Positions 22,626 through 40,678 of a stretch of DNA of 40,897 nucleotides are shown here, piece after piece. Under the pieces are notes generated by a model that saw nothing but the letters and a program-made list of their open reading frames with translations, did no database searches and was not told the DNA's origin. The translations under genes were made by a program, and so were the position numbers. Origin of the DNA: Anaerolineae bacterium (lineage in GTDB: Bacteria > Chloroflexota > Anaerolineae > Aggregatilineales > Ch27); NCBI GenBank assembly GCA_013178165.1, contig JABLXG010000030.1:1-40897 (forward strand), in the 5' to 3' direction. Position 1 is the stretch's first letter. The number at the start of each line of letters is the position of its first letter.

Positions 22626-22707
22626 GGATTATAATCAGCCTTAACCCTTCGCGTAGCCGGGGCGCCGGCAACCCCCAATGGCCGCCTTTTTTATGCGGGA
22701 TATCTTT

Positions 22708-23601
22708 ATGGAGCTCTATCTGGAAGCCTTTTTCGCCTGGCTGGGTGACGTCTCGACCAACACCCGCCGGACCTACACCAACGACCTGCGCCACTTCAGC
22801 CGCTGGTTCGAGGCGCAGCACGGCCAGCCGCCAGAACTGGCTGACCTGACTACGATGACGGTGGTGCTGTACAAAGCGGCCCTGGTCGACAAGCTGCGGC
22901 TCAAGCCTTCCAGTGTCAAGCGCCGGCTGTTGACCCTCAAGCGCTTCTGTCGCTGGGCAGCCGAGCAGGGCTACATCAAGGAGCTACCGGCCAAGGGGGT
23001 CAAGATCCCGCCGGTGCCCCCGAGCGGGCCGCGCAGCCTCGACCGGGCGGCGGTGCGGGCCTTGCTGCGGGCAGCGCGGCGGGATCCGCACAAGTTGGCC
23101 CGGCGCAACTACGCCATCCTGCGGGTCTTGCTGGACACCGGGATCCGGGTCGGCTCGCTGGTGGCGCTGCGGCTGGGGGATATTCGCTGGACAGAGAAGC
23201 GCCGGAAGGCTACCCTGCGGGTGCTGTATGGCAAGGGCAAGCGCTCCAATACCATCCCCCTGCCCTACACCACCCGGGCCGCCCTGGAGGACTACCTGGC
23301 GGTCCGGCCAGCGAGCGGGGACGACCACCTCTTCCTGTCCAGCCGGGGCACAGCCCTGGACACCGACACCGTCAGGCACGTGATTAACAAGTATGCCAGG
23401 CAGGCGGGCCTCGACCCGGGCGAGGTCTCCCCACACATGCTGCGCCACACCCTGGCCAGGATGCTACTGGCGAACGGCTCTCCCCTCACCGAGGTACAGG
23501 CCATTCTGGGGCATGCCCATATTACCTCGACCGCCATCTACACCCAGCCCAGCGAGGAAGAAAAGGCCAACGCCCTGGAGCGCGCCGCAGAGGAATTCTG
23601 A
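22708..23601 (+). CDS. Tyrosine recombinase / integrase
   Basis: This is a 297-residue phage-integrase/XerD-type recombinase. The N-terminal SAM-like core-binding domain (ELYLEAFFAWLGDVSTNTRR and on, residues 2-90) is followed by the catalytic domain with Arg147 (TGIRVGSL), Lys176 (GKGKR), HMLRH at 243-247, His269 (LGHAH) and the nucleophile Tyr278 (AIYTQ). All active-site residues are present. ATG 22708 follows GCGGGA at about 7 bases and begins exactly at the domain start; ATG 22678 and 22693 are alternatives. It cuts and joins DNA at specific sites and marks the left edge of the defence island, directly after the IS relic. It could mobilise the island or resolve multimers of a replicon. 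Codon use is clearly GC-rich compared with the preceding 1 kb. Confidence 0.93.
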   Translation: MELYLEAFFAWLGDVSTNTRRTYTNDLRHFSRWFEAQHGQPPELADLTTMTVVLYKAALVDKLRLKPSSVKRRLLTLKRFCRWAAEQGYIKELPAKGVKIPPVPPSGPRSLDRAAVRALLRAARRDPHKLARRNYAILRVLLDTGIRVGSLVALRLGDIRWTEKRRKATLRVLYGKGKRSNTIPLPYTTRAALEDYLAVRPASGDDHLFLSSRGTALDTDTVRHVINKYARQAGLDPGEVSPHMLRHTLARMLLANGSPLTEVQAILGHAHITSTAIYTQPSEEEKANALERAAEEF

Positions 23602-26700: not shown

Positions 26701-26800
26701 GGGGGACCAATTCCGGACGATGTATGAAGTGTTCGACCAGCTCGGCTTTGGCTCCATAGTCGTTACCGCTGACCCCTTTGACGAGGATGCTCGGCCATGA
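23774..26800 (+). CDS. DUF499-type AAA ATPase of a methylase/helicase defence cassette
   Basis: This is a 1008-residue P-loop protein of the DUF499 type. The opening PRTEVLSGELREEIFAARL and FFDNTYPTEGL are characteristic. Walker A is GGGKTH at 85-90 and Walker B LIMLDE at 188-193, and a sensor-like VIVLTLADES follows. Around residues 833-847 CPICGNLVTECTCG is a four-Cys zinc knuckle. The C-terminal part (FRVEQNLTVEFDGGEYFQIR and on) is unassigned. DUF499 proteins occur next to DUF1156 methylases and SNF2-type helicases in predicted anti-phage cassettes; the ATPase is presumed to be a motor or a sensor. ATG 23774 follows GGGGAGGA at good spacing. The stop overlaps the next start (ATGA), so the ASCH gene is translationally coupled. 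Confidence 0.88.
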   Translation: MLSIFRACEPRTEVLSGELREEIFAARLRDVIEGQADAVYQDPTIFFDNTYPTEGLVTLLGEALGRLSGAKPANNAIIRLETAFGGGKTHNLIALYHAASGHIPPANFLDPQLVPPPGAVRIAGVVGSDLDPTMGLQHGHVTTYTLWGEIAYQLGGAQAYEYVRRSEIDRTAPGTGLLEELIGDQPTLIMLDEVARHLRAAKTVPTATGRSDLAEQTVAFLMSLFEFAASKKQAVIVLTLADESDAFGRETEELRQEIARELAETRRLSARQELVITPTVETEIAAIVTHRLFRHIDRAAAAHTARAYMDYYRQCVAHNANLPQRALRAEYALEIEANYPFHPDLLTALNRKVSTIPNFQKTRGALRLLAMVVRQLWNYPQDGVYLIHPFNVDLGHEGIANDLTGRLERPRFKQIIEADIVSHLAGSQAHAQILDEAIGGVPFTQRVATTAFIHSLTQGVASGIDPADLTLAVLTPDDDPALIQRAADRLLDKGWYFEYDGHRYRFKPEVSLNKIIEDEMGAVGLVTAKMELDQRIRQVWKKGFLKPVFFPSEPADVDDDAGAPKLVIVHYDAAVTATQSTTPPDLVVHLFNHTGVQEGYRIFKNNLVFLVADSDQVENMVAHAQRYLAIRRILNDNERLNDFYEDQRQKLKRMGDAAELDVRVAITKAYRWLYYPSGDAPQTHSNLAREQLQPQDQGKVNVDQSEVVLHILKTLEKVQTQDSPSLSAKFVRSKAWDAGKNHLSTEDLRQAFARKMNLRMLLDVNQLKKTIRNGVEQGVWIYYDAREQVGYDAESPFPVIQINDETFLYDPDEYKRLGWPIRGKEPAPPPDERCPICGNLVTECTCGRLSTTLPRQLKGEGVPRQAFQRIYDLCTDQGITRLHTLTIDIQGTHQQGANEVRALGLAIPQLGKGNFRVEQNLTVEFDGGEYFQIRFKGGWDRYKRLKQVTDAFAQEGRKLNVVMTLRADLPDGLEVQGDQFRTMYEVFDQLGFGSIVVTADPFDEDARP

Positions 26801-27720
26801 AAACCCTCTCGATCCGCCAACCCTGGGCCGAATTGATCCTGCAGGGGCGCAAGACAATCGAGCTGCGCACCTGGCGCACGAACTATCGCGGCCCGTTGTT
26901 GATCCACGCGGGCGGGAATGTTGAGTACGATGCCTGCGCCGCTTACGGTCTTGACCCTGAGGTGCTTGTGCGCGGGGCGCTGGTGGGCACGGTTGAGGTT
27001 GTGGACATGGTGACGTTCAACCACGCCAGCTTTGCTGCGCTGCGCAACGAACATCTCGACCCGGGCGAGTGGCCCGGCGATCTCGTCGGCTGGCGGCTGG
27101 CCAACCCCTGCCGCCTGCCCGCCCCGATCCCCCTGCGCGGTCGCCTGGGCCTGTTTGAAATCCCGGATGAAGTGCTTGCGGGCAACGCCCCCGTACCACA
27201 TTACCTGACCCCCCGGCAACCCGCTGGCCCACCGTCGCCGCGCCCGCTCCCTCCCCCACCTGCCGGGCCACCGCCGCATGGGTATGACCCGACCAGGCCC
27301 TTCGAACTGCATGTTGAGCCACGTGACGCGCATGGTTACGCCCTGACCCTCTACCAGTGGCCGGTGAAGGCTAATGGAGTCCCGGCGGAAGCCAGGCGGA
27401 TCGTCACCCTGAGCGGCGTGAACCTGCTGGCGGTGGTCGATCACGTGCTGGAGGCGCTGCGCCGCACCGGCTACAGGACGACCGATCTCTCATCCCGGCG
27501 GCACAAACCCTTCCGCCTGGATGAAGAAACCGGCCTGCGCCTGGGACTCCTGTTCCTGACCATCGCCCCGCTTTCCCGCCTGGACCGCATCGAAGCGATC
27601 TCGCGCGAGCTGCGCGCCATGCCCTCCGAAGAGGCCTATTACTGGTATAGTAAATGCACCGACCCGCGCGCCAGCGGGCGTGCCCAGCAGGCACTGCGCA
27701 CCCTGTTGGCGGCTGAGTAA
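26797..27720 (+). CDS. ASCH-domain protein of the defence cassette
   Basis: This is a 307-residue two-part protein. Residues 1-125 form an ASCH/PUA-like domain: TLSIRQPWAELILQGRKTIE with the RTW and YRGPLLIHAG strands. These folds bind RNA or modified bases. A Pro-rich linker (about 135-160) leads to a C-terminal domain of unknown function (HGYALTLYQWPVK, then EAYYWYSKCTDPRASGRAQQ). It starts inside the stop of the DUF499 gene (ATGA), so the two proteins are made together. A role in recognising modified or foreign nucleic acid is plausible from the fold but is inference. I know related proteins beside DUF499 genes only vaguely. There is no signal or membrane segment. Confidence 0.8.
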   Translation: MKTLSIRQPWAELILQGRKTIELRTWRTNYRGPLLIHAGGNVEYDACAAYGLDPEVLVRGALVGTVEVVDMVTFNHASFAALRNEHLDPGEWPGDLVGWRLANPCRLPAPIPLRGRLGLFEIPDEVLAGNAPVPHYLTPRQPAGPPSPRPLPPPPAGPPPHGYDPTRPFELHVEPRDAHGYALTLYQWPVKANGVPAEARRIVTLSGVNLLAVVDHVLEALRRTGYRTTDLSSRRHKPFRLDEETGLRLGLLFLTIAPLSRLDRIEAISRELRAMPSEEAYYWYSKCTDPRASGRAQQALRTLLAAE

Positions 27721-27811
27721 GGGCGTGTGCAGGCTGGACTGTTTCCTTTTTTCAGCTAGAATCAGACATGCGGATAATCGAGGAATATGCTGAAGAAAGG
27801 AGAGATTGCGG

Positions 27812-28063
27812 ATGATTACGGTAACTGTCGGAAAGAGAGGGCAGATTACGCTGCCCAGCGCCGTCCGCCGGCGGACGGGCATCCAGGATGGCGACCGCAT
27901 GGCCATCTCGCTCGAAGGGGACCGCATCGTCTTGCTGCCGCTCGGCAAAACGCTGCTCGATCTGCGCGGTAGCATCGCGGTAACCGCCCCGCAAGACTTC
28001 GCGCAGATCCGCCGGCAGGTGCTCCAGCAGCGCGCAAGAAGGGCAGACGCCCATGAAGGGTGA
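27812..28063 (+). CDS. vapB: AbrB/MazE-type antitoxin of a VapBC pair
   Basis: This is an 83-residue swapped-hairpin (SpoVT/AbrB) DNA-binding protein: ITVTVGKRGQITLPSAVRRR then GIQDGDRMAISLEGDRIVLL. The C-terminal tail should wrap the toxin. The start at 27812 has AAAGGAGA about 8 bases upstream. Its 3' end overlaps the PIN gene by 11 bases, the usual layout that keeps antitoxin ahead of toxin. It represses its own promoter in known systems. It lies between the ASCH gene and the methyltransferase gene, so it is embedded in the defence operon. Confidence 0.88.
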   Translation: MITVTVGKRGQITLPSAVRRRTGIQDGDRMAISLEGDRIVLLPLGKTLLDLRGSIAVTAPQDFAQIRRQVLQQRARRADAHEG

Positions 28064-28472
28064 GACGATCTTCGCCGACACCAACCTCTTCCTGCGCTTC
28101 CTGACCAACGACGTGCCGGAGCAGGCCGACGCCGTAGAACGGCTGCTGCGCCGTGCGGCTGCGGGGGAATTGCGGCTGGTGACCAGCGCTCTGGTCGTGA
28201 GCGAGATCGTCTGGACGCTGGAATCGTTCTACGGCCTGCCCAAGAAGGCCGTGCGCGAGCATGTCCTGGCCATCCTGAACACGCCCGGCCTGGAGGTGGC
28301 CGAGGCGGATACCCTGCTGCAGGCCACCATCTGGTATGAAGAGAAGAACGTGGACTTCGTCGACGCTTTCAACGCTGCCTGGCTGCTGGATGGCGGGCTG
28401 GAGCGCATTGCGACCTTCGACCGCAGGCATTTCGCCCGCTTCAAGGGCATTTCGGTGCTGGTGCCTGGGTAG
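28053..28472 (+). CDS. vapC: PIN-domain toxin ribonuclease
   Basis: This is a 139-residue PIN-domain RNase. The acidic centre is complete: Asp9 (FADTN), Glu51 (VVSEIVWTLE), Asp101/Asp104 (NVDFVDAFNA) and Asp123 (ATFDRRH). VapC toxins cut tRNA or rRNA when freed from VapB. The ATG lies within the antitoxin gene. It is followed after 68 bases by the methyltransferase start. Position within the cassette suggests that it could act as a guard that kills or stalls the cell if the cassette is lost or disturbed; that is inferred. Confidence 0.9.
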   Translation: MKGETIFADTNLFLRFLTNDVPEQADAVERLLRRAAAGELRLVTSALVVSEIVWTLESFYGLPKKAVREHVLAILNTPGLEVAEADTLLQATIWYEEKNVDFVDAFNAAWLLDGGLERIATFDRRHFARFKGISVLVPG

Positions 28473-28539
28473 CGCTGGCTGAGGCCCGCCTTTATTCTGG
28501 CCGATGGCGGGCCGTTGTGAGACTCCGGGAGAAAACCTC

Positions 28540-31476
28540 ATGCCTGACCCCCGCCCCCCCGTCCTGATTGAAGACTGGTTGCCCTTTGAGGCCGTCGGCG
28601 CTGAGAGCCAGCGCGAACGCGGCGCGAGCAGCGCCCTGCCGCCGCTGTACTTTTTGCATGTATGGTGGGCGCGCCGCCCGCTGACCGTCAGCCGGGCGGC
28701 GATCCTGGCGGGCGCCCTGCCGCAGTGGTCGCCCGACTGGCCGGAGCCGCTGCGACGGCGCTTCCCCGACGAAGGGAGCTACCGCGACTGGTTCGTGCAC
28801 CTGCTGGGCATTCGGGGCAATCCGATTGAAGGGCGGAAGCGGACAGTAGAGGCCAAGAACTCAGGAGAGTGGGAGAAAGACCCCTACCGTGGCGCGCCGC
28901 GCGCCTTCACCGTCAACCCGTCCCCCGAAGACCTGGCGCTGCTGCGCGACCTGCTGGAAATCACCTGGGGGACGCGCGACGTGACGGTGATGGACGTGAC
29001 GGCGGGCGGCGGCTCGATCCCCTTTGAGGCGCTGCGCTACGGCTTCACCACCTGCGCCAACGAGCTGAACCCGGTCGCGTCGGTCATCCTCAAGGCCACG
29101 CTCGACTATCCGGCGCGCTATGGGGTTGGACTGGCGGCAGATATTCAGCAATGGGGCAAACGCTGGTACGAGTTGGTCAAGGCGCGGCTGCAACCATATT
29201 TCACGCCGTTGCCACCCGGCGCAGAGGGCGCGGCCTACCTCTGGGCGCGGACGGTCGCCTGCCCGGTCACCGGCAAACCCGTGCCGCTCTCGCCCAACTG
29301 GTGGCTGAGCCGGGGCAAGGATAAGGTCGCCGTGCAACTGATCGCCGACCCCGCCCGGGACGCGCCGCAGTTCGTGATCAAGCGCGGCGACGCGATCGAC
29401 TTTGACCCGGACGCGGGCACGGTCAGCCGGGGCGTGGGCCTTTCGCCCTGGACGGGCGAGGCGATCCCCGGTGAGTACATCAAGGCCGAGGCGCAGGCCG
29501 GGCGCATGGGGCAGATGCTCTATGCGGTGGCCGTCAAGCGCACGGGCGGCTTCGACTTCCGCCCCCCGACCGCCGACGACCTGGAAGGCGTGCGCCGCGC
29601 CGAGATCGCGCTGGCCGAGCGCCTGCCCGCCTGGGAGGCGGCGGGGCTGGTGCCGAGGGAGCCTTATCCCGAAGTCAGCAACGACCCGCGCCCGCTGATC
29701 TACGGGATGCCGACCTGGGCCGACTTCTTCTCCCCGCGCCAGCTGCTGGCGATGCTGACCTTCCTGGAGACCTTGCGCGAGGTCGGGCGCGAGCTGCGCG
29801 CGAACATGGACGCGGATCGCGCGGCGGCGGTGGAGACGTATTTGGGGCTGGCGCTGGATAAGTGCCCGAACTACAACTGTCTTCAGTCGCGTTGGCATCC
29901 GCCGCGTGCTGTTATTGCACCTGTTTTTGATCGCCACGATTTCAGCTTCAAATGGACTTACGCTGAGTTTGACGCGGCGGCTAACCTTCTCCCGTGGGGC
30001 GTCACTCAGGTCGTGGATGCGTATACGGGTATGGCTGAGCTTGCCAGCCCTGCGCAATATCCGTTGTGGCGGGCTGAGGGCGTACCGCCGTTTGAGCGTT
30101 TGGCAATATGGCAAGAGTCAGCGACCGATCTAGCCCAAGTCCCCAGCGGCAGCCTGCACAACATCACCTTCGACCCGCCCTACTACGACAACGTGATGTA
30201 CGCCGAGCTGGCCGACTTCTTCTATGTGTGGCTCAAGCGCTCGGTGGGGCATCTCTTCCCGCAGTTCTTCGCCGATCACCTGACCAACAAGGACGATGAA
30301 GCGGTCGCCAATGTCGCCCGCTTTGAGGGTATGGGCCGCAACAAGCGCGCCCTGGCCGAGCAGGACTACCAGCGCAAGATGGAGGCGATCTTCCGCGAGT
30401 GTCACCGTATGCTGCGCGACGACGGCGTGCTGACGATCATGTTCACGCATAAAAAGGTCGAGGCCTGGGATACGCTGGCCAGCGCGCTGATCAACGCCGG
30501 CTTCTCGGTGCAGGCGTCGTGGCCGGTCCACACCGAGAGCGAGCATTCGCTGCATCAGGCGAAGAAGAACGCCGCGCAGAGCACCATCCTGCTGGCCTGC
30601 CGCAAGCGCCAGGCCTCCGGCGAGCCGGTCTGGTGGGACGACATCCGCGGGCAGGTGCAGCGCGTCGCCCGCGAGAAGGCGGCGGCGTTCGCGGCGCAGG
30701 GCGTCGGCGGCGTGGACCTCTACATCAGCACATTCGGCCCGGCGCTGTCGGTCATCTCGGCGCACTGGCCTGTGCTCACCAGCGCGATCGATGAGCGTAC
30801 GGGCCAGCCGGTGCCGCTGCGCCCGGAGACGGCGCTCGACCTGGCGCGTGAGGAAGTGATCAAGCTGCGCAAGCGGGGCCTGCTGCTGGGCCGCGACATT
30901 CAGTTTGACCCGTTCACCGACTGGTATATCATGGCCTGGGATGCCTTCAAAGCGGTCGAGTTCCCCTACGACGAGGCGCGCAAGCTGGCGATTGCCCTGG
31001 GCGTGGACATGGACGGCGAGGTGCGCGGGCACAAGAACCTGGTGGCGCGCAAGGGGAGCAATGTGGTGCTGCAGGCGCCGGTGCAGCGCCGCAAGCGCGG
31101 GATGGTCGATCCCGATCTGTCGGTTTTTGAGAGCATGATTGATGCAGTCCACACGGCGCTGCTGGTACTGGGCGAGGACGGCACGTACGCCTGCGAAGCG
31201 TTCCTCAAGCGCTCCGGCCTGCTGAACGATGGGCAGTTCCGGCAGTGTATCCAGGCGCTGATCAACGCGATCCCACGCACGAAAGTGAAGGGGGAATGGG
31301 TGCGCGTGGAGGCGGAGTTGCTCGAACGGCTGCGGGCGAACTTCTATCCTGATCTGGAAGTCCCGCCGGAAGAAACGCCGCCCGCGCTGCCGCAACAGTT
31401 GGGGCTGTTCGATCAGGCGGGCACGGGTGATGCGGAGTTCGAGGACGAGGAGGACTTCGGGGAGGATGACGCATGA
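28540..31476 (+). CDS. DUF1156-type DNA methyltransferase
   Basis: This is a 978-residue DNA methylase. The N-terminal DUF1156-like part includes PPLYFLHVWWARRPLTVSRA (residues 35-54). SAM motif I is MDVTAGGGSIPFEALRYG (151-168) and the catalytic motif IV is DPPYYDN from residue 545, the order used by N6-adenine/N4-cytosine methylases with a long insertion between them. LRDDGVLTIMFTHKK follows. The start at 28540 is preceded by GGGAG; a longer frame from 28504 is less likely. The stop overlaps the helicase start (ATGA). The enzyme presumably marks self DNA for the cassette. A stretch at about 29880-30125 uses T-ending codons unlike the GC-rich rest. Confidence 0.9.
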   Translation: MPDPRPPVLIEDWLPFEAVGAESQRERGASSALPPLYFLHVWWARRPLTVSRAAILAGALPQWSPDWPEPLRRRFPDEGSYRDWFVHLLGIRGNPIEGRKRTVEAKNSGEWEKDPYRGAPRAFTVNPSPEDLALLRDLLEITWGTRDVTVMDVTAGGGSIPFEALRYGFTTCANELNPVASVILKATLDYPARYGVGLAADIQQWGKRWYELVKARLQPYFTPLPPGAEGAAYLWARTVACPVTGKPVPLSPNWWLSRGKDKVAVQLIADPARDAPQFVIKRGDAIDFDPDAGTVSRGVGLSPWTGEAIPGEYIKAEAQAGRMGQMLYAVAVKRTGGFDFRPPTADDLEGVRRAEIALAERLPAWEAAGLVPREPYPEVSNDPRPLIYGMPTWADFFSPRQLLAMLTFLETLREVGRELRANMDADRAAAVETYLGLALDKCPNYNCLQSRWHPPRAVIAPVFDRHDFSFKWTYAEFDAAANLLPWGVTQVVDAYTGMAELASPAQYPLWRAEGVPPFERLAIWQESATDLAQVPSGSLHNITFDPPYYDNVMYAELADFFYVWLKRSVGHLFPQFFADHLTNKDDEAVANVARFEGMGRNKRALAEQDYQRKMEAIFRECHRMLRDDGVLTIMFTHKKVEAWDTLASALINAGFSVQASWPVHTESEHSLHQAKKNAAQSTILLACRKRQASGEPVWWDDIRGQVQRVAREKAAAFAAQGVGGVDLYISTFGPALSVISAHWPVLTSAIDERTGQPVPLRPETALDLAREEVIKLRKRGLLLGRDIQFDPFTDWYIMAWDAFKAVEFPYDEARKLAIALGVDMDGEVRGHKNLVARKGSNVVLQAPVQRRKRGMVDPDLSVFESMIDAVHTALLVLGEDGTYACEAFLKRSGLLNDGQFRQCIQALINAIPRTKVKGEWVRVEAELLERLRANFYPDLEVPPEETPPALPQQLGLFDQAGTGDAEFEDEEDFGEDDA

Positions 31477-34400
31477 CCTCGCTGCGCGAAGTCGAGTGGC
31501 AGATCTCCTACGGCCCCTCGGATGACCGGCTGAACCGCTTTTACATCCCGGCGCTCCAGCGCAGCGTGCAGTACGACCGCAGCACGGGCTTCTTCAGCAG
31601 TTCGGCGCTGGCAGTGGCGGCGGCGGGCGTGGCCGGGCTGATCGCCAACGGCGGCAGGATGCGGCTGCTGGTCGGGGCGCAGCTCAGCCGCGAGGATGTG
31701 GAGGCGGTTACCCGCGGCGCGGCGCTGGAGGGAATCGTCGCTGAGAAGCTGATCGCGGCGCTGGAGGAGCCGGTGGAGGATTTGCTGCGCCGCCGCCTTG
31801 AGATTCTGGCCTGGATGATCGCGCGGGGCACGCTGCAGATCAAAGTTGTCCTGCCGCGCGATGCGCATGGGCTGCCTGTCCCGGCGGATCAGGCCCAGGA
31901 CTATTACCATCCTAAAGAGGGGGTGTTCACCGACGCGGCGGGCAATCAGGTCGCCTTCAGTGGCAGCATCAATGAGTCGATGACCGGCTGGCAGCGCAAC
32001 TATGAGCAGTTCAGCGTCTACTTCTCGTGGGACAGCAGCCAACCTTACCTGCGGCAGGTCGTGCACCGATTCAACAATGTCTGGGAAGGTCGCGAGCGAG
32101 GCTGGATCGCCTTCGATATCCCCCAGGCGGCACGCCAGTCGCTGTTGCGGTTCGTGCCAGCCAATGCCCCCGAACACGATCCGCTGGCTCCGCCGCCAGT
32201 CATTGCCGTTCCACCTCCCGATCTGGAAGCGCAGCTTCGCCGCGAGCGCCTGATCTTCCAGTTCATCCGCGACATTCCCTACTTTCCCAACGCCGGGCAG
32301 CTCGGCGCGGCGACGTGCACGATCACGCCCTGGCCGCACCAGATGCGCGTGGCGCAGCAGATCATCGAGACCTATCCCAGGCGCTACATGCTGTGCGACG
32401 AGGTCGGGCTGGGCAAGACCATCGAAGCCGGGCTGGTGCTGCGGCAACTGGTCATTTCCGGTCGGGTGAAGCGCTGCCTGCTGCTCGTGCCGAAGTCGGT
32501 CGCGCGCCAGTGGCAGGAGGAGCTGTACGAGAAATTCGTGCTCGATGTGCCGCTTTTCGATGGCAAGCGGTTCTGGAACTACGCGGGGGAAGCGCTGGAA
32601 TACAACACCGGCAATCCCTGGGACGCTTTTGACATGATGATCGCCTCCAGCCAGCTTGCCAAGCGCCGCACCCAGCAGGAGCGCGTGACGTCCGCGCGCC
32701 CGTGGGACCTGGTGCTGGTCGACGAAGCACACCATGCCCGCCGGCGCGACTTCCTGCAGCCCATCTACCGCCCGAACCGTCTGCTCGAACTGCTCACCGC
32801 TCCTGACTTCAGGGCCAACGCCATCCTCTTAATGACCGCTACGCCGATGCAGGTCCACCCGCTGGAAGTGTGGGACCTGCTCAAGGTATTGGGTCTGGGC
32901 GGCAAGTGGGGCGCAGACGAGGGAAACTTCCTGCGCTTTTATTCTGAACTGATGAAGCCCTTTGACGAAATCGACTGGGATTTCGTATTTGAGATGTTGA
33001 ACGACTATCGGGAATACAGCGGGCAAATCGATCCAGAGTTTGAGGAGGAGATCGATGACGCGCTGGGGGTCGTGGACGGGGCCAGGCTGCAGCAATTGCT
33101 GAATGCTCCCCACCCCTCGCGGGAGGTACGTTCACTGCCGGAGAATGCAAAACCCTACATTGTCAAGATGGCGCGTCGACACACGCCATTGCGGGCATTG
33201 ATGTTCCGCAATACGCGTGACTTGCTGCGGGAATATGTCCGGTGCGGACTGTTGAAGGAAAATGTCCCCACCCGTGATCCGCAACTGGTCTGGATACCCA
33301 TGCGCCCTGACGAGATGGCGCTCTACCAGCGTATCGAAGAGTACATCTCCGATTTCTACCGGAAGTATGAGAATGAGCGCAAGGGCCTGGGTTTTGTGAT
33401 GACGGTCTACCGCCGCCGCCTGACCAGCAGCTTCTATGCGGTCCAGAAAAGCCTGGAACGCCGACTGGATTACCTGCGCGGGCGCGCTGTGCAGGTCTTT
33501 GACGATGACGACCTTGAGCAGGCCTATCTCGAGCAGGATGACACTGAGGAAATTGTGGATGAAAACCAGCGCGCGCTGTACAAGGATGAGATTGACTACG
33601 TAGAGACGTTCATCCGCGATCTTCAGCCACTTGTACCCCAGGATTCCAAAACCGACCAGCTTATCCAGGACCTGAATGATCTCTTCCGGAAGCGTGAGAC
33701 AGCGCTGGTTTTCACCCAATATACCGACACCATGGATTACCTGCGCGACAAACTGCGCCAGGTGTACGGCAATCAGGTGGCCTGCTATAGCGGTCGTGGC
33801 GGTGAGGTCTGGAATGGCATCGCCTGGGTCAGTATTGCCAAGGAAGAAATCAAGCAAAAGTTCCGGGAAGGGAAAGAGGTCAAGATTCTGGTCTGCACCG
33901 AAGCGGCTAGCGAAGGTCTGAACCTGCAAAGCTGCGGTGTCTTGATCAACTACGACATGCCCTGGAATCCGATGCGGGTGGAACAGCGCATCGGCCGTAT
34001 TGACCGTATTGGTCAGGTGTACTCTGAAGTCTGGATTCGTAACTACTTTTACGAAGAAACAGTTGAAGCGCGGGTGTACCAGGCTCTGGCCAGGCGCATC
34101 AACTGGTTCAAAGGGGTTGTTGGCGATCTGCAGCCGATTCTGGCCCGGGTCGGGCAGGCTATTGAACGCGTGGTGATGACTACACCTGACGAGCGAGAGC
34201 GCGTGCTGGCCGGAGAACTTGATGAAATCGAGCGGAAACTCGATCAAAAAGGGGATATTCTGAATGTCTATGAGAGTAGTGAGAGCGTTCGTCCCGGGGT
34301 AGGGATAGCTGCTCCGATTACGCTTGACGAACTTGAGCGCTGTTTTCTAGAAAGCTCGTTCTTTGCTCACCAGTTCATCCCTCACCCGGACATTAAAGAG

Positions 34401-35135
34401 GCTTACCTGATCAACGCTGCCGGTGAGCAGGCCGTGGTAACCTTTAAGCCAGAGCTTTTTGATCGTTTCCCTAATTCTCTTCAACTGTTGTCCTATGGCA
34501 ATCAGACGCTGGATGCCCTGCTTGACCAGGACTCACTCCCTGAGCGTGACGTGTATCTTGGGATCGCTCGTTTCTCTTCAGACAATATCGTGCCGTTGAA
34601 GGCCTACTATGGTTTGAATCAGGATGGGCAACCGGTCCTGCTCCGGACACTGCAAGATCTCTTGGGGGCACTCAAGAACACCCATGAAGCCGGTACATGG
34701 ACTCAGGAAGCCCGCCAGCGAGCTGAAGAGGATTTTGAGAAGTATGTACAGGACGCCCGCAAAAAATACACCAGCGTTACAGATCTGCGCCTATCTGCCA
34801 CAGCCGCGGCGCTAGTAGAGCAAGCCGTTCGGATTGTTTTTCAGGCTACCCTGCTCGATCTATTGCTGGATGGGAACTTCAGCACAGCAGAAGACGCTTG
34901 GCACGCCATCACAACAGGCAACCAGCTGACCCAGAATCTGGTACGTCACGGGTATCCATTTACAGCCTTACTGGAACTGGCTTCGAGACAGAAGCATAGA
35001 GCAAGCGTACCCAGGCTAGAACTCGACGTTTTCAGCAATGCAGGCCCAGATCAACTTAAGAGGATGTTTCGTGATGTACGGCAAGAGGGAGAGACATTGC
35101 TTAAGCGTTGGAAAAAGATGCAGAAACACGGATAG
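31473..35135 (+). CDS. PLD-like nuclease fused to SNF2/RapA-type helicase
   Basis: This is a 1220-residue fusion. The N-terminal phospholipase D-like domain (about 1-195) carries HPKEGVFTD and then FSGSINES, matching HxK...D...GSxN of PLD nucleases. An SF2 helicase follows: DEVGLGKTIEAG near 309, VDEAHHARRR near 416, TATPMQ near 456, a long insertion, then TALVFTQYTDT, EAASEGLNLQ and QRIGRIDRIGQ near 837. The C-terminal 300 residues are helical and unassigned. It is the effector-like member of the cassette, probably translocating on double-stranded DNA and cutting it. It shares an ATGA overlap with the methylase. Codon use becomes less GC-rich in the second half. Confidence 0.9.
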   Translation: MTSLREVEWQISYGPSDDRLNRFYIPALQRSVQYDRSTGFFSSSALAVAAAGVAGLIANGGRMRLLVGAQLSREDVEAVTRGAALEGIVAEKLIAALEEPVEDLLRRRLEILAWMIARGTLQIKVVLPRDAHGLPVPADQAQDYYHPKEGVFTDAAGNQVAFSGSINESMTGWQRNYEQFSVYFSWDSSQPYLRQVVHRFNNVWEGRERGWIAFDIPQAARQSLLRFVPANAPEHDPLAPPPVIAVPPPDLEAQLRRERLIFQFIRDIPYFPNAGQLGAATCTITPWPHQMRVAQQIIETYPRRYMLCDEVGLGKTIEAGLVLRQLVISGRVKRCLLLVPKSVARQWQEELYEKFVLDVPLFDGKRFWNYAGEALEYNTGNPWDAFDMMIASSQLAKRRTQQERVTSARPWDLVLVDEAHHARRRDFLQPIYRPNRLLELLTAPDFRANAILLMTATPMQVHPLEVWDLLKVLGLGGKWGADEGNFLRFYSELMKPFDEIDWDFVFEMLNDYREYSGQIDPEFEEEIDDALGVVDGARLQQLLNAPHPSREVRSLPENAKPYIVKMARRHTPLRALMFRNTRDLLREYVRCGLLKENVPTRDPQLVWIPMRPDEMALYQRIEEYISDFYRKYENERKGLGFVMTVYRRRLTSSFYAVQKSLERRLDYLRGRAVQVFDDDDLEQAYLEQDDTEEIVDENQRALYKDEIDYVETFIRDLQPLVPQDSKTDQLIQDLNDLFRKRETALVFTQYTDTMDYLRDKLRQVYGNQVACYSGRGGEVWNGIAWVSIAKEEIKQKFREGKEVKILVCTEAASEGLNLQSCGVLINYDMPWNPMRVEQRIGRIDRIGQVYSEVWIRNYFYEETVEARVYQALARRINWFKGVVGDLQPILARVGQAIERVVMTTPDERERVLAGELDEIERKLDQKGDILNVYESSESVRPGVGIAAPITLDELERCFLESSFFAHQFIPHPDIKEAYLINAAGEQAVVTFKPELFDRFPNSLQLLSYGNQTLDALLDQDSLPERDVYLGIARFSSDNIVPLKAYYGLNQDGQPVLLRTLQDLLGALKNTHEAGTWTQEARQRAEEDFEKYVQDARKKYTSVTDLRLSATAAALVEQAVRIVFQATLLDLLLDGNFSTAEDAWHAITTGNQLTQNLVRHGYPFTALLELASRQKHRASVPRLELDVFSNAGPDQLKRMFRDVRQEGETLLKRWKKMQKHG

Positions 35136-35249: not shown

Positions 35250-35471
35250 ATGACCATCAGCGAGATTGTGAAACAGGCGCAAGCCCTCAGTCAGCAAGAT
35301 CGTAAGGAATTGATCAAGCTCCTGATTGATTCACTGGACGTGGAGACTCCGCCGGCGCTCCGTCGCCGACGTTTATCTGAGCTGCGCGGCCTGGGCAAGG
35401 AAATCTGGCAGGATATCGACGCTCAGGAGTATGTCAATCGTCTGCGTGACGAGTGGGATCGCCAGCAGTGA
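35250..35471 (+). CDS. Small antitoxin-like protein (second TA pair)
   Basis: This is a 73-residue helical protein. Its start MTISEIVKQAQALSQQDRKE followed by LIKLLIDSL is a pattern common to small addiction-module antitoxins that precede PIN toxins. The C-terminal half is charged and probably binds the toxin. Its last codons overlap the toxin start (GTGA). It is not of the AbrB type, so this pair is not a copy of the VapBC pair at 27.8 kb. Confidence 0.75.
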   Translation: MTISEIVKQAQALSQQDRKELIKLLIDSLDVETPPALRRRRLSELRGLGKEIWQDIDAQEYVNRLRDEWDRQQ

Positions 35472-35932
35472 AGATCAGCACGGCTCTGGCTGGTGTTCGA
35501 CAGCTATACATTGAGACCGCCCCGCTGATTTATTACGTGGAACTGAATCCAGACTATACCGCCAGGATGGATGCCATTGTGGCTGCCATCGAAACGGCCT
35601 CTATTGAGGCGGTCAGCTCAGTGATCACGCTGGTTGAGGTATTGAGCCATCCAATGAAAGTGGGTGATCAGCGCCTGATCCAGGAATATCGTGACATTCT
35701 GGTCAACAGTGGTGAGTTTCGCCTTGTCCCTGTGACTGCCCGGATTGCCGAGTATGCCGCCGAAATGCGTGCGCGTTACAACCTTCGTACGCCGGACGCA
35801 CTGCATGTGTCTTCAGCAGTTCTTACAGGCTGCGACGCTTTCCTGACCAACGATGCCGGTTTGGAACGCGTTACAGAGATCCGGATCCTGGTTTTGAACG
35901 CCCTGGAACTCGACGTGCCGTCAGAGCGCTGA
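35468..35932 (+). CDS. PIN-domain toxin (second TA pair)
   Basis: This is a 154-residue PIN-domain protein. I choose the GTG at 35468, which overlaps the antitoxin stop by four bases (GTGA), over an upstream ATG at 35453. The acidic positions are Glu16 (YIETAPLIYYVE), Glu57 (TLVEVL), Asp110 (TPDALHVSSA) and Asp129 (FLTNDAGL). The first is normally Asp, so metal binding at the catalytic site could be altered although Glu may still serve. The expected activity is RNA cleavage upon antitoxin loss. It ends about 100 bases before a convergent gene. Confidence 0.82.
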   Translation: MKISTALAGVRQLYIETAPLIYYVELNPDYTARMDAIVAAIETASIEAVSSVITLVEVLSHPMKVGDQRLIQEYRDILVNSGEFRLVPVTARIAEYAAEMRARYNLRTPDALHVSSAVLTGCDAFLTNDAGLERVTEIRILVLNALELDVPSER

Positions 35933-36029: not shown

Positions 36030-36752
36030 CTACCCTGCCCCGCTAGAGAGCAGCAGCACGATCAGGGCGGCACTGACCAGCACTGCCACGATCCCCAGCG
36101 CCAGCAGCAGACGGGCGTGCAGTTGCTGCTCCTGCTCGCGCTGGCGGGCAGCGGCCTCTCGTTCGCGTTCGATGGCTTCCAGTTTGCCGCGCAGCTCGCC
36201 CAGCGCCTGGCGGGTAGCTACCAGATCGTCCCCCTGGGTCAGGTAGTATGCCCGCTCTGGTTCCAGAATCTCCAACTTGCCGCGCAATTCGCCCAGAGCG
36301 GTAAGTGTGGCTGACAATTCCTGACGAGTGGCAGTGTGGGCAGCCCGCTCCTCAGCCAGATCAGCCTGCAAGGCGTCTACGCGGTCGTTGAGCAGGGCGA
36401 TCTCGCGGGTGAGGGCCTGGCGTTGTTGCAGCAGGGCCTGTTGCGCTTCTGACTGCGGCACGAGCGGGCCGGGTACGACGCCGGGAGGAGCGGCGGGCAT
36501 CGGCGGCAGGTCGGCCCAGTTCTGAGCCTGCATGCGGGTCAGGGTGGCGTGAATGTCTGCCCAGGCGGTATTGCGAGCGCGCAACTCGGCGACCAGGGCC
36601 AGGATGCGGGCGTCGCGGTCGTCGAAGTAGCGGCGCTGGCTGTTGTCGCCACCCTGGGCGGCTGGCGACAGGAAGGCGGCAAATTCACGCGACCAGACCT
36701 TGATCGCGCTGACGCTGACATTCAACCACCTGGCCAGTTCGCCGGTGCGCAC
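36030..36752 (-). CDS. Tail-anchored MerR-like DNA-binding protein with coiled coil
   Basis: This is a 240-residue protein. Residues 1-70 (TGELARWLNVSVSAIKVWSR then RRYFDDRDARILALVAELRA) form a MerR-like winged helix. A Pro-rich spacer leads to a long coiled coil (about 110-210) with two copies of ALGELRGKLE. One hydrophobic helix (215-235) near the C-terminus anchors it in the membrane, so DNA is held at the inner face. I place the start at GTG 36752 because AGGAG lies about 7 bases upstream; the longer TTG-initiated frame would cover the operator. It is divergent from the four-TM protein gene and close to parAB. A role in segregation, replication control or membrane tethering of the replicon is inferred. 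Confidence 0.75.
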   Translation of the reverse strand: MRTGELARWLNVSVSAIKVWSREFAAFLSPAAQGGDNSQRRYFDDRDARILALVAELRARNTAWADIHATLTRMQAQNWADLPPMPAAPPGVVPGPLVPQSEAQQALLQQRQALTREIALLNDRVDALQADLAEERAAHTATRQELSATLTALGELRGKLEILEPERAYYLTQGDDLVATRQALGELRGKLEAIEREREAAARQREQEQQLHARLLLALGIVAVLVSAALIVLLLSSGAG

Positions 36753-36765
36753 CGTATTACTCCTG

Positions 36766-36803
36766 ACGGATAATTTATCCGTATATAGCTTTGAAGCGGA
36801 TAA
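36766..36803 (-). promoter_or_regulatory. Operator for the MerR-like gene
   Basis: ACGGATAA, T, TTATCCGT at 36766-36782 is a perfect palindrome 14 bases upstream of the GTG start. A third half-site CGGATAA lies at 36797-36803. A minus-strand promoter may use TATATA (36782-36787) and TTGCCG (36807-36812), spaced 19 bases, so the sites flank or cover it. Autorepression is likely. Confidence 0.6.
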
Positions 36804-36828
36804 AAACGGCAAAAACGGTTTTGTTCGC

Positions 36829-36857
36829 TTGCGGTGGCCGTCTTTTCATGCTACACT
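36829..36857 (+). promoter_or_regulatory. Sigma-70-type promoter with extended -10
   Basis: TTGCGG at 36829-36834 and TACACT at 36852-36857 are 17 bases apart, and TGC directly precedes the -10. This is the best promoter match in the window. Transcription would start near 36864 and run toward the four-TM gene. Confidence 0.65.
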
Positions 36858-36863
36858 GCCCGT

Positions 36864-37015
36864 AACTAAACACAAGGCCGAGCAGTGCGCCACCACTCCC
36901 GGCCTGACCACAACCCACACGCTTGCGCCGGTTGCGGTACTGCCAGTATACCAGCAAAGCCCCCTGCCTTACAACGCATGTCCGCCCGCGCACCCGATCT
37001 TCGCGCGGGCTTTTT
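36864..37015 (+). ncRNA. Candidate small RNA or attenuated leader
   Basis: A roughly 150-nt unit runs from the promoter at 36829-36857 to an intrinsic terminator at 36984-37015. Inside it AGGCCG (36875-36880) can pair with CGGCCT (36900-36905). No open frame with a ribosome binding site is apparent. It could be a free small RNA, as used in plasmid copy control, or a leader whose terminator limits expression of the gene at 37046. I do not recognise a known RNA family. Confidence 0.45.
36984..37015 (+). terminator. Intrinsic terminator upstream of the four-TM gene
   Basis: GCCCGCGC (36984-36991) pairs perfectly with GCGCGGGC (37003-37010) around an 11-base loop and is followed at once by five T. 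It ends 30 bases before the start codon at 37046. Confidence 0.8.
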
Positions 37016-37045
37016 GCCAGCCCTCATAGAGTTCAGGAGTATGTG

Positions 37046-38128
37046 ATGATGACCGTTCAACCTTCCCAACCTGCGGCATTGACCGCCACACAGCGCCGGG
37101 CGCTGGAAGTGCTCGCCCCACTCTCCGAAGAAGAGCGCCTGGACGCCCGCGACCGCGCTCGCCGCGCCGTGCTCCGCAAGATCGGCCCGCAGCCCAGCCG
37201 CGAACAGTTCAACAGCGCCGGGCCGCGCCCTCTCCGGGAGCAGTTCGACGATTCCACGATCAGCGAATATCCGGCCTGGATGACCCGCGCCATCAGCGTC
37301 ATGCTGCTGATCGCTTTTCTTGGCGCGTTTGCCACCAGCGCATTCTCCGTTTTCAGCGCCGGGCGCGATCATTACCTGGTGGCGATGGGCCATGGCGCAG
37401 GTATCGAGTGGCAGGCCGTGATCGTCGGTCTGGCGGTCGTTCTGCTGGCGGAATTCCTGACCATTGCCAGCGTGCTGGCCGCCCGGATTCTACTGGCCGG
37501 GCGGCGACTCTGGCAGCTGGTGATGCTACTGCCGATCACCGCCGGTGTGGTGATGGCCGTCACCGCCAACGCTGTCATCGCCCGTCCGGTCGGATTCTGG
37601 CCCTGGCTGGTCACGGTCACACCGCCGGTTTCAGTGGTGTTTCTATCGCTGATTCTGGAACAGATCGCCCTGACCGACATCAAGCGCCGCCACGCCAACG
37701 AGCGTGCTTTTCAGGCTGCGCTACGAGAGTGGAAGCTACAAGCTCAGGCGGATGAGCAGGCTTATCAGGCTGCTATGCGCGAGTGGGAGCAGCGCGTGGC
37801 CCATCCAGAACAATCGCCGCACTGGATGCAGGCTTACGCCAACAGCCTCAAAGAAGCGCTACGGGAGGTCAATGGCCGGGGACGTGGTCGGGCCGAACGG
37901 CTGGAATACATGGCGAATCTGGGCGGCGCAGAGTGGTCGGCACTGGTGATGCGCGAGCTGCAGGCCGACCGCTGGTTTGAGGAGGTAGCGGATGAGGCAA
38001 ATTTTACGTCGGCGGGGGTAGCCCCGCAGCCCTTCCCCACCGTCCTGCCGGAGCGCCAGACTACTCCGCCAGATGCGGCACTACTCCCGACTTTGCCGCT
38101 TGCGCTGAAGGGCAACGGGGCGCACTAG
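37046..38128 (+). CDS. Four-TM membrane protein with coiled-coil tail
   Basis: This is a 360-residue protein I do not recognise. A charged cytoplasmic N-terminus (1-80) precedes four hydrophobic segments at about 82-103, 124-149, 155-179 and 185-208. A Glu/Arg/Ala-rich coiled coil follows (about 210-300) with the near-repeat FQAALREW / YQAAMREW, then a Pro/Thr-rich tail. CAGGAG lies 6 bases before ATG 37046; ATG 37049 is equally possible. Together with the tail-anchored protein encoded divergently it could form a membrane platform for the replicon. Its end overlaps a -1-frame zinc-finger coding stretch (37996-38268), which raises the possibility of a longer frameshifted product. Confidence 0.75.
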   Translation: MMTVQPSQPAALTATQRRALEVLAPLSEEERLDARDRARRAVLRKIGPQPSREQFNSAGPRPLREQFDDSTISEYPAWMTRAISVMLLIAFLGAFATSAFSVFSAGRDHYLVAMGHGAGIEWQAVIVGLAVVLLAEFLTIASVLAARILLAGRRLWQLVMLLPITAGVVMAVTANAVIARPVGFWPWLVTVTPPVSVVFLSLILEQIALTDIKRRHANERAFQAALREWKLQAQADEQAYQAAMREWEQRVAHPEQSPHWMQAYANSLKEALREVNGRGRGRAERLEYMANLGGAEWSALVMRELQADRWFEEVADEANFTSAGVAPQPFPTVLPERQTTPPDAALLPTLPLALKGNGAH

Positions 38129-38268
38129 ATGGGTCGGGTCGCCCACGCAAATGGAAGGTCTGTCCACAATGTGGTCGCCACTTCAGGACACGCAATCCGG
38201 CCAAAATCTATTGTTCGGCTGCCTGTCGTGTGGCCGCGTATCGGGCCACCGAGCAGCCCGCGCTGTAA
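37996..38268 (+). other. Startless zinc-finger coding stretch in the -1 frame
   Basis: This frame is open from 37996 to TAA 38266-38268 and ends with KVCPQCGRHFRTRNPAKIYC then SAACRVAAYRATEQPAL, a clear CxxC...CxxxC zinc-binding module. It contains no ATG, GTG or TTG start, and it is in the -1 frame relative to the upstream four-TM gene, with which it overlaps by 133 bases. Within the overlap, A-AAT-TTT (37999-38005) fits the X-XXY-YYZ slippery pattern in the correct phase. Either a programmed -1 shift appends the finger to the membrane protein, or an old frameshift separated them. Confidence 0.55.
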
Positions 38269-38485: not shown

Positions 38486-38509
38486 GATTCGGACCAATTG
38501 GTCCGAATC
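38486..38509. promoter_or_regulatory. parS: parS candidate 1, perfect 24-bp palindrome
   Basis: GATTCGGACCAA is followed directly by its reverse complement. The same 24 bases recur inside parB at 40451-40474. It lies 109 bases upstream of the parA start, where ParB binding would serve both centromere function and repression of the par operon. The sequence differs from the common chromosomal parS (TGTTTCACGTGAAACA). Confidence 0.75.
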
Positions 38510-38617: not shown

Positions 38618-39505
38618 ATGCACACGATCATCGCTGTGGTGAATGAAAAAGGCGGCGTGGGCAAGACCACGACCGCGATCACGATGGCCGCCGGGCTGGC
38701 CCGCCGCGGGCACACAGTCGCCCTGGTGGACTGCGATCCCCAGGGCCATGTCGCCAAGTATCTGGGTTTGCCGGAAGAGTCGGGGCTGTTTGATCTGCTG
38801 GTCAACAACCAGCCCATTGCCGGCCTGCTGCGCCCGGTTCCTCCTACAAAATGGGCGGATCCTGACGGTGGCAACGGCCAGCTGGTGATTCTGCCGGGCG
38901 ACCAGCGCACAACCTCGGCGGGTCACCTGTTGACCGCCGAGCAAGCCCCGGTGACCATCCTGCGTGACCGGCTGGCGCCATTGCGTGGTGCGGATTTCAT
39001 CGTGCTGGATACCAGCCCGACCGTGACCCTGCTGGTGGCCATGATCTACGTCGCTGCTGACCGCATCCTGATTCCTACCCAGCCGGAACTGGGTAGCGTC
39101 AACGGCGTGACCAAGGCGCTGGCACGTATCAAGACCGCCCGCGAGCGCGGCGCACCGGTACGCCTGCTGGGCGTCCTGCCGTTGATGCTGCGCAATACCA
39201 ACGAGCACAACGCCAACCTGGCTGAACTGATGCGACTGCTGGAGCCGGAAGCCTGGGAAGAATATGAGGAGGCGGTGGCCTCGCTGGGGAATTCGGAGAA
39301 TCTGACGGTGGAGCGCTTCCTGATGGGGCGGCACCACGAAGGCAAGATTGGCTCGCTACTCTCGCCGATCGCCCAGTCTACCATCTGGCCGGAAACGCCG
39401 GCTTACCAGCAAACAATCTTCACCTATGCCACGCCTGGCAACAAGGCCCGCCAGGCCGCCGAACGACTGATTGACCAGATCGAATTCAAACTGCGGGGGG
39501 GATAA
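38618..39505 (+). CDS. parA: ParA-type partition ATPase
   Basis: This is a 295-residue Walker-type ATPase. The deviant P-loop KGGVGKTT is at 11-18 with the signature Lys, the A' motif DCDPQGH at 38-44, and the Walker B-like FIVLDTSP near 127-134. It lacks the N-terminal HTH of large plasmid ParA (type Ia), so repression would fall to ParB. ParA forms ATP-dependent gradients on the nucleoid that move ParB-parS complexes. TAAGGAG lies about 10 bases upstream of ATG 38618. parB follows after six bases in the same operon. Confidence 0.92.
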   Translation: MHTIIAVVNEKGGVGKTTTAITMAAGLARRGHTVALVDCDPQGHVAKYLGLPEESGLFDLLVNNQPIAGLLRPVPPTKWADPDGGNGQLVILPGDQRTTSAGHLLTAEQAPVTILRDRLAPLRGADFIVLDTSPTVTLLVAMIYVAADRILIPTQPELGSVNGVTKALARIKTARERGAPVRLLGVLPLMLRNTNEHNANLAELMRLLEPEAWEEYEEAVASLGNSENLTVERFLMGRHHEGKIGSLLSPIAQSTIWPETPAYQQTIFTYATPGNKARQAAERLIDQIEFKLRGG

Positions 39506-39511
39506 ACCACT

Positions 39512-40678
39512 ATGGGAAGACGCCGAGACAAACGCGATCGCCAGAGCGCCAGCAGCATCCGCCCGGAGGACGCCTCCCGCCCGCAGGTCGATGACGACTT
39601 CATCGACGCTTTCCTGGGCATCGGGGCCGAGCTGCAGGCGGAAGTCATCGAGCCGGTGGGCGTCCCCATCCGGGATATCCTGCCCGACCCGGTTCAACCG
39701 CGCCGGGCTATGCCACCCGAATTACGCGACGCTTGGCTGCGGGGCGAACCCGCGGATAAGGTGCTTGAGCGCTGGGAAGTCCTGGCCCACGCTGCGGCCA
39801 TTGACGCCCAGATGCCGCTGCGCTGGAAGCACATCATCGACCAGGAGGACGACCCCACGCCGCTCAATGAGGGCGGCCCGGATCGCGACCGGCGCGAGTT
39901 GCCGGCGGTGGCCGAGCACTGGCTGGACCTGGTGCGGCTGGCGGGCAGCATCCACCAGACCGGGCTGGAGCAGCCGATCACTGTCTACCGGGATGGCAAA
40001 GGCTATCGGCTGATCGTCGGCGAGCGGCGGTTGCTCGCTTACCATCTGCTGGACAAACTGGGTTACGAAGGCTACACGCACATCCCGGCCATCAAACGGG
40101 CCGAGCCGGGTGTCTGGCGGCAGGCCTTTGAGAACGGGGCGCGCCAGAATCTCAACGCCATCAGCAAGGCTCGCCAGCTGGCGCTGCTGCTGATGGCCCT
40201 GAATCCCGGAGCCTGTGCGCCCTTCGACGGCAAAGGCCAGCCGGGCCAGGAGTGGTATGCCCAGGCGGCCAGTTTGCGCGTGCCGTATGGCCGGGCGGAG
40301 GCGGTGACCACCGTGCTTGGCCTCAAGAACCCGCGCCATTTGCGCCGTTACCGCGCCCTGCTGACCCTGCCGGGCGCGGTCTGGGAACTTGCCGATGAGC
40401 ACGATTGGACGGAGGGCCGCCTGCGGGACATGATCGCCGAGGCGGGCGGCGATTCGGACCAATTGGTCCGAATCGCACGGCGGGAAGCTGGCCTGGAACA
40501 GCCCGTGCGTGAGCTCCGCGATCCGCTGCTGCGCTCGGTGGAGCGGGTGATTGCCCGGCTGAACACGCTCAGCCAGATCACGCCCAACCGCGACTGGACG
40601 TACCAGCAGCGGGAGATCGTGCGGCGGGCTATTCAGGAAGCCCGGCGGCGGCTAGACGAGCTGGAGCGCGAACTGTAA
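39512..40678 (+). CDS. parB: ParB-type partition DNA-binding protein
   Basis: This is a 388-residue ParB/Spo0J-type protein. The N-terminal domain has IRDILPDPVQPRR, a roughly 70-residue acidic insertion, then SIHQTGLEQPITVYRDGKGY and the CTPase-type motif GERRLLA (usually GERRxxA). A central helical HTH region (about 210-290, ISKARQLALLLMAL, YGRAEAVTTVLGLKNPRHLR) should bind parS. The C-terminal helix is charged and would dimerise. A 28-bp palindrome lies inside its own coding sequence, encoding DSDQLVRI. It starts six bases after parA. Confidence 0.88.
   Translation: MGRRRDKRDRQSASSIRPEDASRPQVDDDFIDAFLGIGAELQAEVIEPVGVPIRDILPDPVQPRRAMPPELRDAWLRGEPADKVLERWEVLAHAAAIDAQMPLRWKHIIDQEDDPTPLNEGGPDRDRRELPAVAEHWLDLVRLAGSIHQTGLEQPITVYRDGKGYRLIVGERRLLAYHLLDKLGYEGYTHIPAIKRAEPGVWRQAFENGARQNLNAISKARQLALLLMALNPGACAPFDGKGQPGQEWYAQAASLRVPYGRAEAVTTVLGLKNPRHLRRYRALLTLPGAVWELADEHDWTEGRLRDMIAEAGGDSDQLVRIARREAGLEQPVRELRDPLLRSVERVIARLNTLSQITPNRDWTYQQREIVRRAIQEARRRLDELEREL
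40449..40476. promoter_or_regulatory. parS: parS candidate 2, perfect 28-bp palindrome inside parB
   Basis: The 24-bp palindrome seen at 38486-38509 is repeated exactly at 40451-40474 and extended by two more complementary base pairs on each side. It lies within the parB reading frame. Exact conservation of 24 bases in coding DNA at a second place argues for a protein-binding site. Confidence 0.75.

Follow-up and report, generated by a model that had tools for sequence, protein, structure and literature searches.

The window analysed here is an entire contig (C30; 40,897 bp) from a 4.19 Mb assembly. It carries a divergent pair of genes for predicted membrane proteins with a parAB pair beside them, and the features of this region are as follows.

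36033..36752, minus strand: MerR-type helix-turn-helix (HTH) protein with a long coiled coil and a C-terminal transmembrane anchor (MerR_1 match, start site)
36766..36782, no strand: 17-bp palindrome ACGGATAATTTATCCGT (odd base at its centre), shortly before the MerR start
37046..38128, plus strand: four-TM protein gene, 0 frame, 360 aa (hydropathy, loop charges, AlphaFold2, family searches)
37980..37985, plus strand: AGGAGG, Shine-Dalgarno-like, 13 nt upstream of the slippery site
37999..38005, plus strand: in-phase slippery heptamer A_AAT_TTT (four-TM codons GCA AAT TTT)
38005..38268, plus strand: -1 frame extension over the four-TM 3' end, 87 aa plus stop
38012..38027, plus strand: hairpin GCGGGG-GTAG-CCCCGC, 6 nt downstream of the heptamer
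38161..38226, plus strand: zinc-finger core CPQCGRHFRTRNPAKIYCSAAC with invariant cysteines, GSGRPRKWKV just before it
38486..38509, no strand: 24-bp perfect palindrome GATTCGGACCAATTGGTCCGAATC, copy 1, upstream of parA
38618..39505, plus strand: parA (AAA_31, E=1e-28)
39512..40678, plus strand: parB (ParB_N, E=2e-6)
40451..40474, no strand: the same palindrome, copy 2, inside the 3' part of parB

The minus-strand protein matched Pfam MerR_1 (E=5e-8; 33.4 bits against a cut-off of 21.6) and belongs to the MerR family by this HTH domain. Its middle part is long, charged and helical, and its C-terminal hydrophobic segment is followed by 'SSGAG', which indicates that it is tail-anchored. The gene probably starts at GTG 36752 (240 aa), with AGGAG about 7 bases upstream, and not at TTG 36812 of the earlier ORF. 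With this start, ACGGATAATTTATCCGT stands directly before the gene, where an operator would be expected, and it is therefore a candidate operator of the MerR-type gene. The protein resembles KfrA and KfrC of RA3 (IncU), which, in the accessible parts of the reports, have an N-terminal DNA-binding head and a long alpha-helical tail and are tied to plasmid maintenance and the segrosome (PMC7783346, PMC7821693). In those parts KfrA is not described as membrane-anchored, whereas the window protein is tail-anchored; KfrA and KfrC also come without a frameshift, and by Pfam the window protein is MerR_1, with KfrA_N absent and no KfrA match at an E of 1. It is probably a second tether or the regulator of the module.

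The divergent four-TM protein showed hydropathy peaks at residues 85-103, 125-143, 160-178 and 186-204. Its AlphaFold2 model was all-helical (pLDDT 70, pTM 0.48, with the TM region at low confidence), with confident N-terminal helices (14-46), a long helix at 184-252 that starts in the last TM segment, and three helices in the C-terminal portion; Foldseek returned no fold match for the model (best E=0.68). Positive loop charges predict that the N- and C-terminal parts are both cytoplasmic. An earlier note on this DNA, made from its letters, had described a tail-anchored MerR-like protein with a long coiled coil, divergent from a four-TM protein and adjoined by parAB. The MerR_1 match, C-terminal hydrophobic segment and helical middle of the first protein, the hydropathy and all-helical model of the second, the gene layout, and the AAA_31 and ParB_N matches downstream all agree with that description, as does the prediction that both membrane proteins have DNA-binding parts. 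The same note had raised a possible zinc-finger extension of the four-TM protein. The extension is real, and the end that the note gave to the module, 38268, is its stop codon; its probable entry by a conserved -1 frameshift was absent from the note.

No family match was found for the four-TM protein in Pfam, NCBIfam or PHROGs, and searches of plasmid, phage and viral collections gave no relatives. By profile searches, the family is present in 33 of the 154 genomes of the window's order and rare outside it, and the named relatives are Chloroflexota/Anaerolineae MAGs. The surroundings of 44 four-TM matches were fetched and their genes marked by profiles within a radius of 7 kb. Slippery sites were analysed in 32 non-redundant members, a set defined by carrying a heptamer. 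Broken or distant pieces without a heptamer were left out (L041 first piece, L043, L111, L113 first piece and L114), and three named exceptions also stand outside the set: L047 (G246), L106 and L161 (G326, from outside the order).

The extension in the window carries the pattern CPQC...CSAAC and is basic, with 13 K+R against 5 D+E. Its frame contains no ATG, GTG, TTG or CTG between the preceding stop and the finger. Across the family, 23 matches had a CxxC...CxxxC finger within -15 to +45 codons of the four-TM stop, and all 23 fingers lay in the -1 frame, far above chance; the other two frames held none. Sequencing error was dropped as the source of the finger's frame, as many independent genomes show the same -1 relation. 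We likewise rejected an in-frame extension: none was seen in relatives, and the 0-frame C-terminus (PLALKGNGAH) resembles the relatives' own ends.

The four finger cysteines were invariant among 19 aligned extensions, and in the AlphaFold2 model of the window extension the finger has a treble-clef-like fold, with pLDDT about 86-94 for this part. Four cysteines, knuckle, hairpin and helix, the elements of a treble clef, are thus present between alignment and model, with zinc binding predicted. The best PDB matches of the model were YacG and a DUF1470 protein, neither significant. DUF2116 ('probable treble clef') matched one relative at E=6e-4 (20.0 bits against a cut-off of 26.8), and a YacG match stood at E=0.02 (15.0 bits against 25.5), both under the curated Pfam cut-offs, so the finger was assigned to neither family. 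YacG, DUF2116 and CGNR-like treble clefs share CxxC...CxxxC, a beta hairpin and a helix with it, albeit through weak matches; unlike them, the finger here would be the frameshift-encoded tail of a membrane protein. In one subfamily the extension is still in the -1 frame, and the cysteines are lost while GR(P/K)RxY...RQRA is kept. Such extensions occur in L100, L106, L118, L119 and L123, for example FWEYSP..GRKRxYADxxxRQRAWYxR. Zinc is therefore not always essential, and the Cys-less forms suggest that the fold or the basic helix matters more than the metal. We infer that the finger binds nucleic acid, presumably DNA.

An in-phase X_XXY_YYZ heptamer lay inside the frame overlap in 32/32 analysed members, where synonymous-codon resampling expects 4.2-4.5, although the members are related to one another and counts across them are not independent trials. 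CCCTTTA accounted for 17, CCCAAAA for 7, CCCTTTT for 4, AAATTTT for 2 (the window and its G001 relative), and TTTTTTA and CCCTTTG for 1 each. Among 279 other ORFs of at least 250 aa from the same loci, which served as controls, 16 had an in-phase overlap heptamer and 4 had one together with a -1 extension of at least 30 aa. The 14 CCCTTTA/G members share the slippery Pro codon, down to its four-fold third base, in 91/91 pairs, compared with 45% in the rest of the gene; in the CCCAAAA group 15/15 pairs share the slippery codon, compared with 32%. Neighbouring genes use CCT for 11% of their prolines and TTA for 5% of their leucines. Conservation of the motif and of the frame relation across homologues thus exceeds chance, which is one mark of -1 programmed frameshifting genes. 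Because unlike heptamers (CCCTTTA, CCCAAAA, CCCTTTT, AAATTTT, TTTTTTA) appear to do the same job, selection seems to have acted on slipperiness and not on one inherited sequence, and their distribution over different subfamilies suggests that it did so repeatedly.

At least 16 of the 32 members, the window among them, have no ATG, GTG or TTG able to start the extension. L101 and L102 fall outside these 16 for having an xTG at the stop, and a TGA stop creates an xTG in the -1 frame automatically. Slippery heptamers together with extensions that lack a start codon make it very probable that programmed -1 frameshifting yields two products from the gene. On this comparative evidence the extension and its slippery sites are almost certainly conserved features; that ribosomes slip here in vivo, and the rate at which they would do so, are inferences. 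The three exceptions retain parts of the pattern: L106 is intact and has the extension, with no perfect heptamer; L047 has its finger in the -1 frame farther downstream, with a shift-prone T_TTT ahead of the stop and no perfect heptamer; and the distant L161 has a -1 frame finger with a C_CCT tetramer only. Transcriptional slippage is an unlikely alternative, since a heptamer like CCCTTTA does not form a long homopolymer run.

A hairpin and a Shine-Dalgarno-like site are visible by eye in the window and in G001, and in the window both lie at the distances usual for known signals; downstream folding in the window (z 0.8) is not above shuffles. Family-wide, downstream RNA folding was barely stronger than that of shuffles (mean z -0.3 to -0.4), and Shine-Dalgarno-like sites numbered 16 against 11.4 expected from a synonymous null, not above chance. 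As for the heptamers, H_HH.U_UU.Y and V_VV.A_AA.R are among the most efficient -1 motif classes in E. coli (PMC4066793), and A_AAU_UUU and C_CCA_AAA fall within them; C_CC.U_UU.A, the commonest motif of the family, is not listed among the best E. coli motifs (PMC4066793).

These features can be assembled into a model. Most ribosomes would terminate at 38126-38128 and yield the 360-aa membrane protein, while a minority would shift into the -1 frame on A_AAT_TTT (37999-38005) and produce a longer form carrying the basic treble-clef zinc finger on the cytoplasmic side. As both forms would be membrane-anchored, how often ribosomes slip would decide what fraction of the subunits can hold nucleic acid. 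The finger-bearing subunits would hold the element's DNA, or a replication or mobilisation complex encoded by neighbouring genes in relatives, at the membrane, and the frameshift ratio would limit how much DNA, or which complex, is held there. A frameshift-made, two-form membrane protein of this kind is in our judgement the best overall explanation, and we hold it with good confidence. The tethering role taken by itself is less secure, with the odds slightly against it. Still more tentative is the idea of a translational rheostat: a membrane assembly would hold a replicating integrative element of Chloroflexota, and -1 frameshifting would determine how many of the assembly's subunits bind DNA relative to those that do not. 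If the idea is true, this frameshift-controlled protein would belong to a kind without precedent.

To our knowledge, conserved programmed frameshifts in bacteria are rare apart from those of insertion sequences, of phages and of a few housekeeping genes. In dnaX of E. coli, -1 frameshifting at a slippery motif yields two products from one gene. The genes for copA of E. coli and for insertion-sequence transposases likewise use X_XXY_YYZ or a related motif to obtain two products from one gene (PMC4066793, PMC5009743). The frameshift product of dnaX and copA is the shorter one and transposases gain a catalytic domain, whereas none of these genes gives a membrane protein a zinc-finger tail; nor are the stimulators known for them evident across the four-TM family. 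The nearest analogy is FseA (msi172-msi171) of the symbiosis-island ICEs, where in ICEMlSymR7A a frameshift rations a DNA-binding protein of the element (PMC10359603). There, too, a mobile-element gene lies over two frames, programmed frameshifting appends a DNA-binding domain to a shorter product, and the arrangement is conserved in many genomes (PMC10359603). FseA differs in its +1 shift, against -1 in the four-TM family, and in being a soluble transcription activator of excision with an HTH-type DUF2285 domain and neither a membrane part nor a zinc finger. No frameshifted membrane/zinc-finger gene of this type was found in the open-licence literature or in passages of two surveys; as far as we found, the apparent frameshift control of the four-TM family, common to about thirty relatives, is undescribed. 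The frameshift would span a whole mobile-element gene family and join membrane anchoring to a zinc finger, in an extension invisible to gene callers because it often has no start codon. It also opens a way to study how large integrative elements maintain and move their DNA in a phylum that is mostly uncultured.

The neighbourhood of the gene bears on what would be held at the membrane. Within 7 kb of the 44 four-TM matches we found PrimPol/DUF3987 genes at 19, HUH-like genes at 16, RHH genes at 14 and tyrosine recombinases at 10, and the usual order in the largest subfamily was four-TM, HUH-like, RHH, PrimPol. Since these neighbours serve replication, mobilisation and integration, the four-TM gene is a mobile-element gene and not a partition gene. 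The HUH-like genes, near 16/44, and the RHH genes, near 14/44, in an order like that of relaxosome operons, would suit a reading in which the frameshift is real and the long form is a docking subunit that brings an HUH-protein/DNA complex to a transfer channel for conjugative mobilisation. We regard this as unlikely, although it fares best among the alternatives: the neighbours examined included no coupling protein or secretion genes, and the window has no HUH-like gene near its four-TM gene. The HUH-like family, moreover, is read as such from its motifs (HDRDT...LHTHVFVAG in the alignment), with no match in Pfam, NCBIfam or PDB, and its weak Rep_OBD match means that it may instead be a replication initiator.

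The two divergent genes could also form a simple regulatory pair, a MerR-type regulator with its membrane target or sensor, in which the four-TM protein anchors no nucleic acid. The palindrome at the MerR start suits such a pair, and the divergent arrangement recurs in G001, whose MerR relative is 48% identical and likewise divergent from a four-TM gene. Yet most four-TM relatives have no MerR neighbour (one was seen in the window, in G001, in G246 and at no other place), and the conserved feature is the frameshifted basic finger, so that we consider a purely regulatory pair improbable.

A small gene of its own for the finger, overlapping the four-TM gene and translated by termination-reinitiation at the latter's stop codon, is very doubtful: L101, L107, L120, L092 and L093 do have xTGA overlaps with ATG or GTG, and possible starts precede the more distant G246 finger, but any TGA stop supplies such an xTG, the start-less members include the window itself, and coupling would neither conserve heptamers to the last synonymous base nor require one fixed frame.

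The tethering model also differs from that of the earlier note, which had proposed a membrane apparatus tied to the adjacent partition genes. A ParA-type ATPase and a ParB-type protein in one operon with a repeated palindrome, the marks of a ParAB system, are found in parAB and not in the four-TM gene. ParA_partition was the best NCBIfam match of parA (E=6e-25, under its cut-off), and parB was below the cut-off of TIGR00180. GATTCGGACCAATTGGTCCGAATC occurs twice in the whole genome, both times at parAB, and the pair is a good candidate for the centromere (parS). This adjacency to parAB and its two 24-bp palindromes favours the proposal, as does the interaction of coiled-coil DNA-binding plasmid KfrA proteins with segrosome proteins (PMC7783346). 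However, parA/parB homologues lay within 7 kb of only 1 of the 44 four-TM matches, that of the window; the genes thus occur mostly away from partition genes (43/44), as the note itself had said would speak against it. ParB homologues occur in 101 of the 154 genomes of the order, widely where there is no four-TM gene, which makes their absence beside it informative. A conserved ParAB membrane partner is therefore largely refuted and has very little probability left. What finds support is the note's wider idea of a role for the replicon beyond mere regulation, as relatives of the four-TM gene are accompanied by mobile-element genes for replication, mobilisation and integration.

The window and its relatives hold further genes of mobile elements. 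At 23774-35135 PADLOC identified an Hma-type defence cluster (HmaC ATPase, HmaB methylase, HmaA helicase), which adjoins a tyrosine recombinase at 22678-23601, indicating that the element carries anti-phage cargo. A diverged Hma set beside an 85%-identical recombinase is present on G001 C28. That contig also has two four-TM genes (L040 5623-7500 and L041 8976-9874) that belong to different subfamilies and lie about 22 kb apart; the second is split by a frame break. Defence-like genes lie near other four-TM loci as well (L107 5658-7670, PglZ; L093 1518-4595, TIR plus FGE-sulfatase). At 35250-35932 of the window an antitoxin-like ORF (weak Unstab_antitox match) overlaps a PIN-domain toxin-like gene.

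On G246:C8 (L047 1-18597) the first 4,462 bp are repeated at the end with a period of 14,135 bp and 98.9% identity, and the contig is thus a circular or tandem 14.1-kb element; its genes include four-TM, finger, MerR, CHC2 primase and recombinase. The unclassified window ORF at 418-2052 has a 36% identical relative in G246 (L049 1131-2207), and the two are perhaps replication proteins of related plasmids. Beside the L049 relative lie genes for a ParM-like actin ATPase and a MerR-like protein, as well as an ORF (L049 1-522) for a tail-anchored HTH coiled-coil protein.
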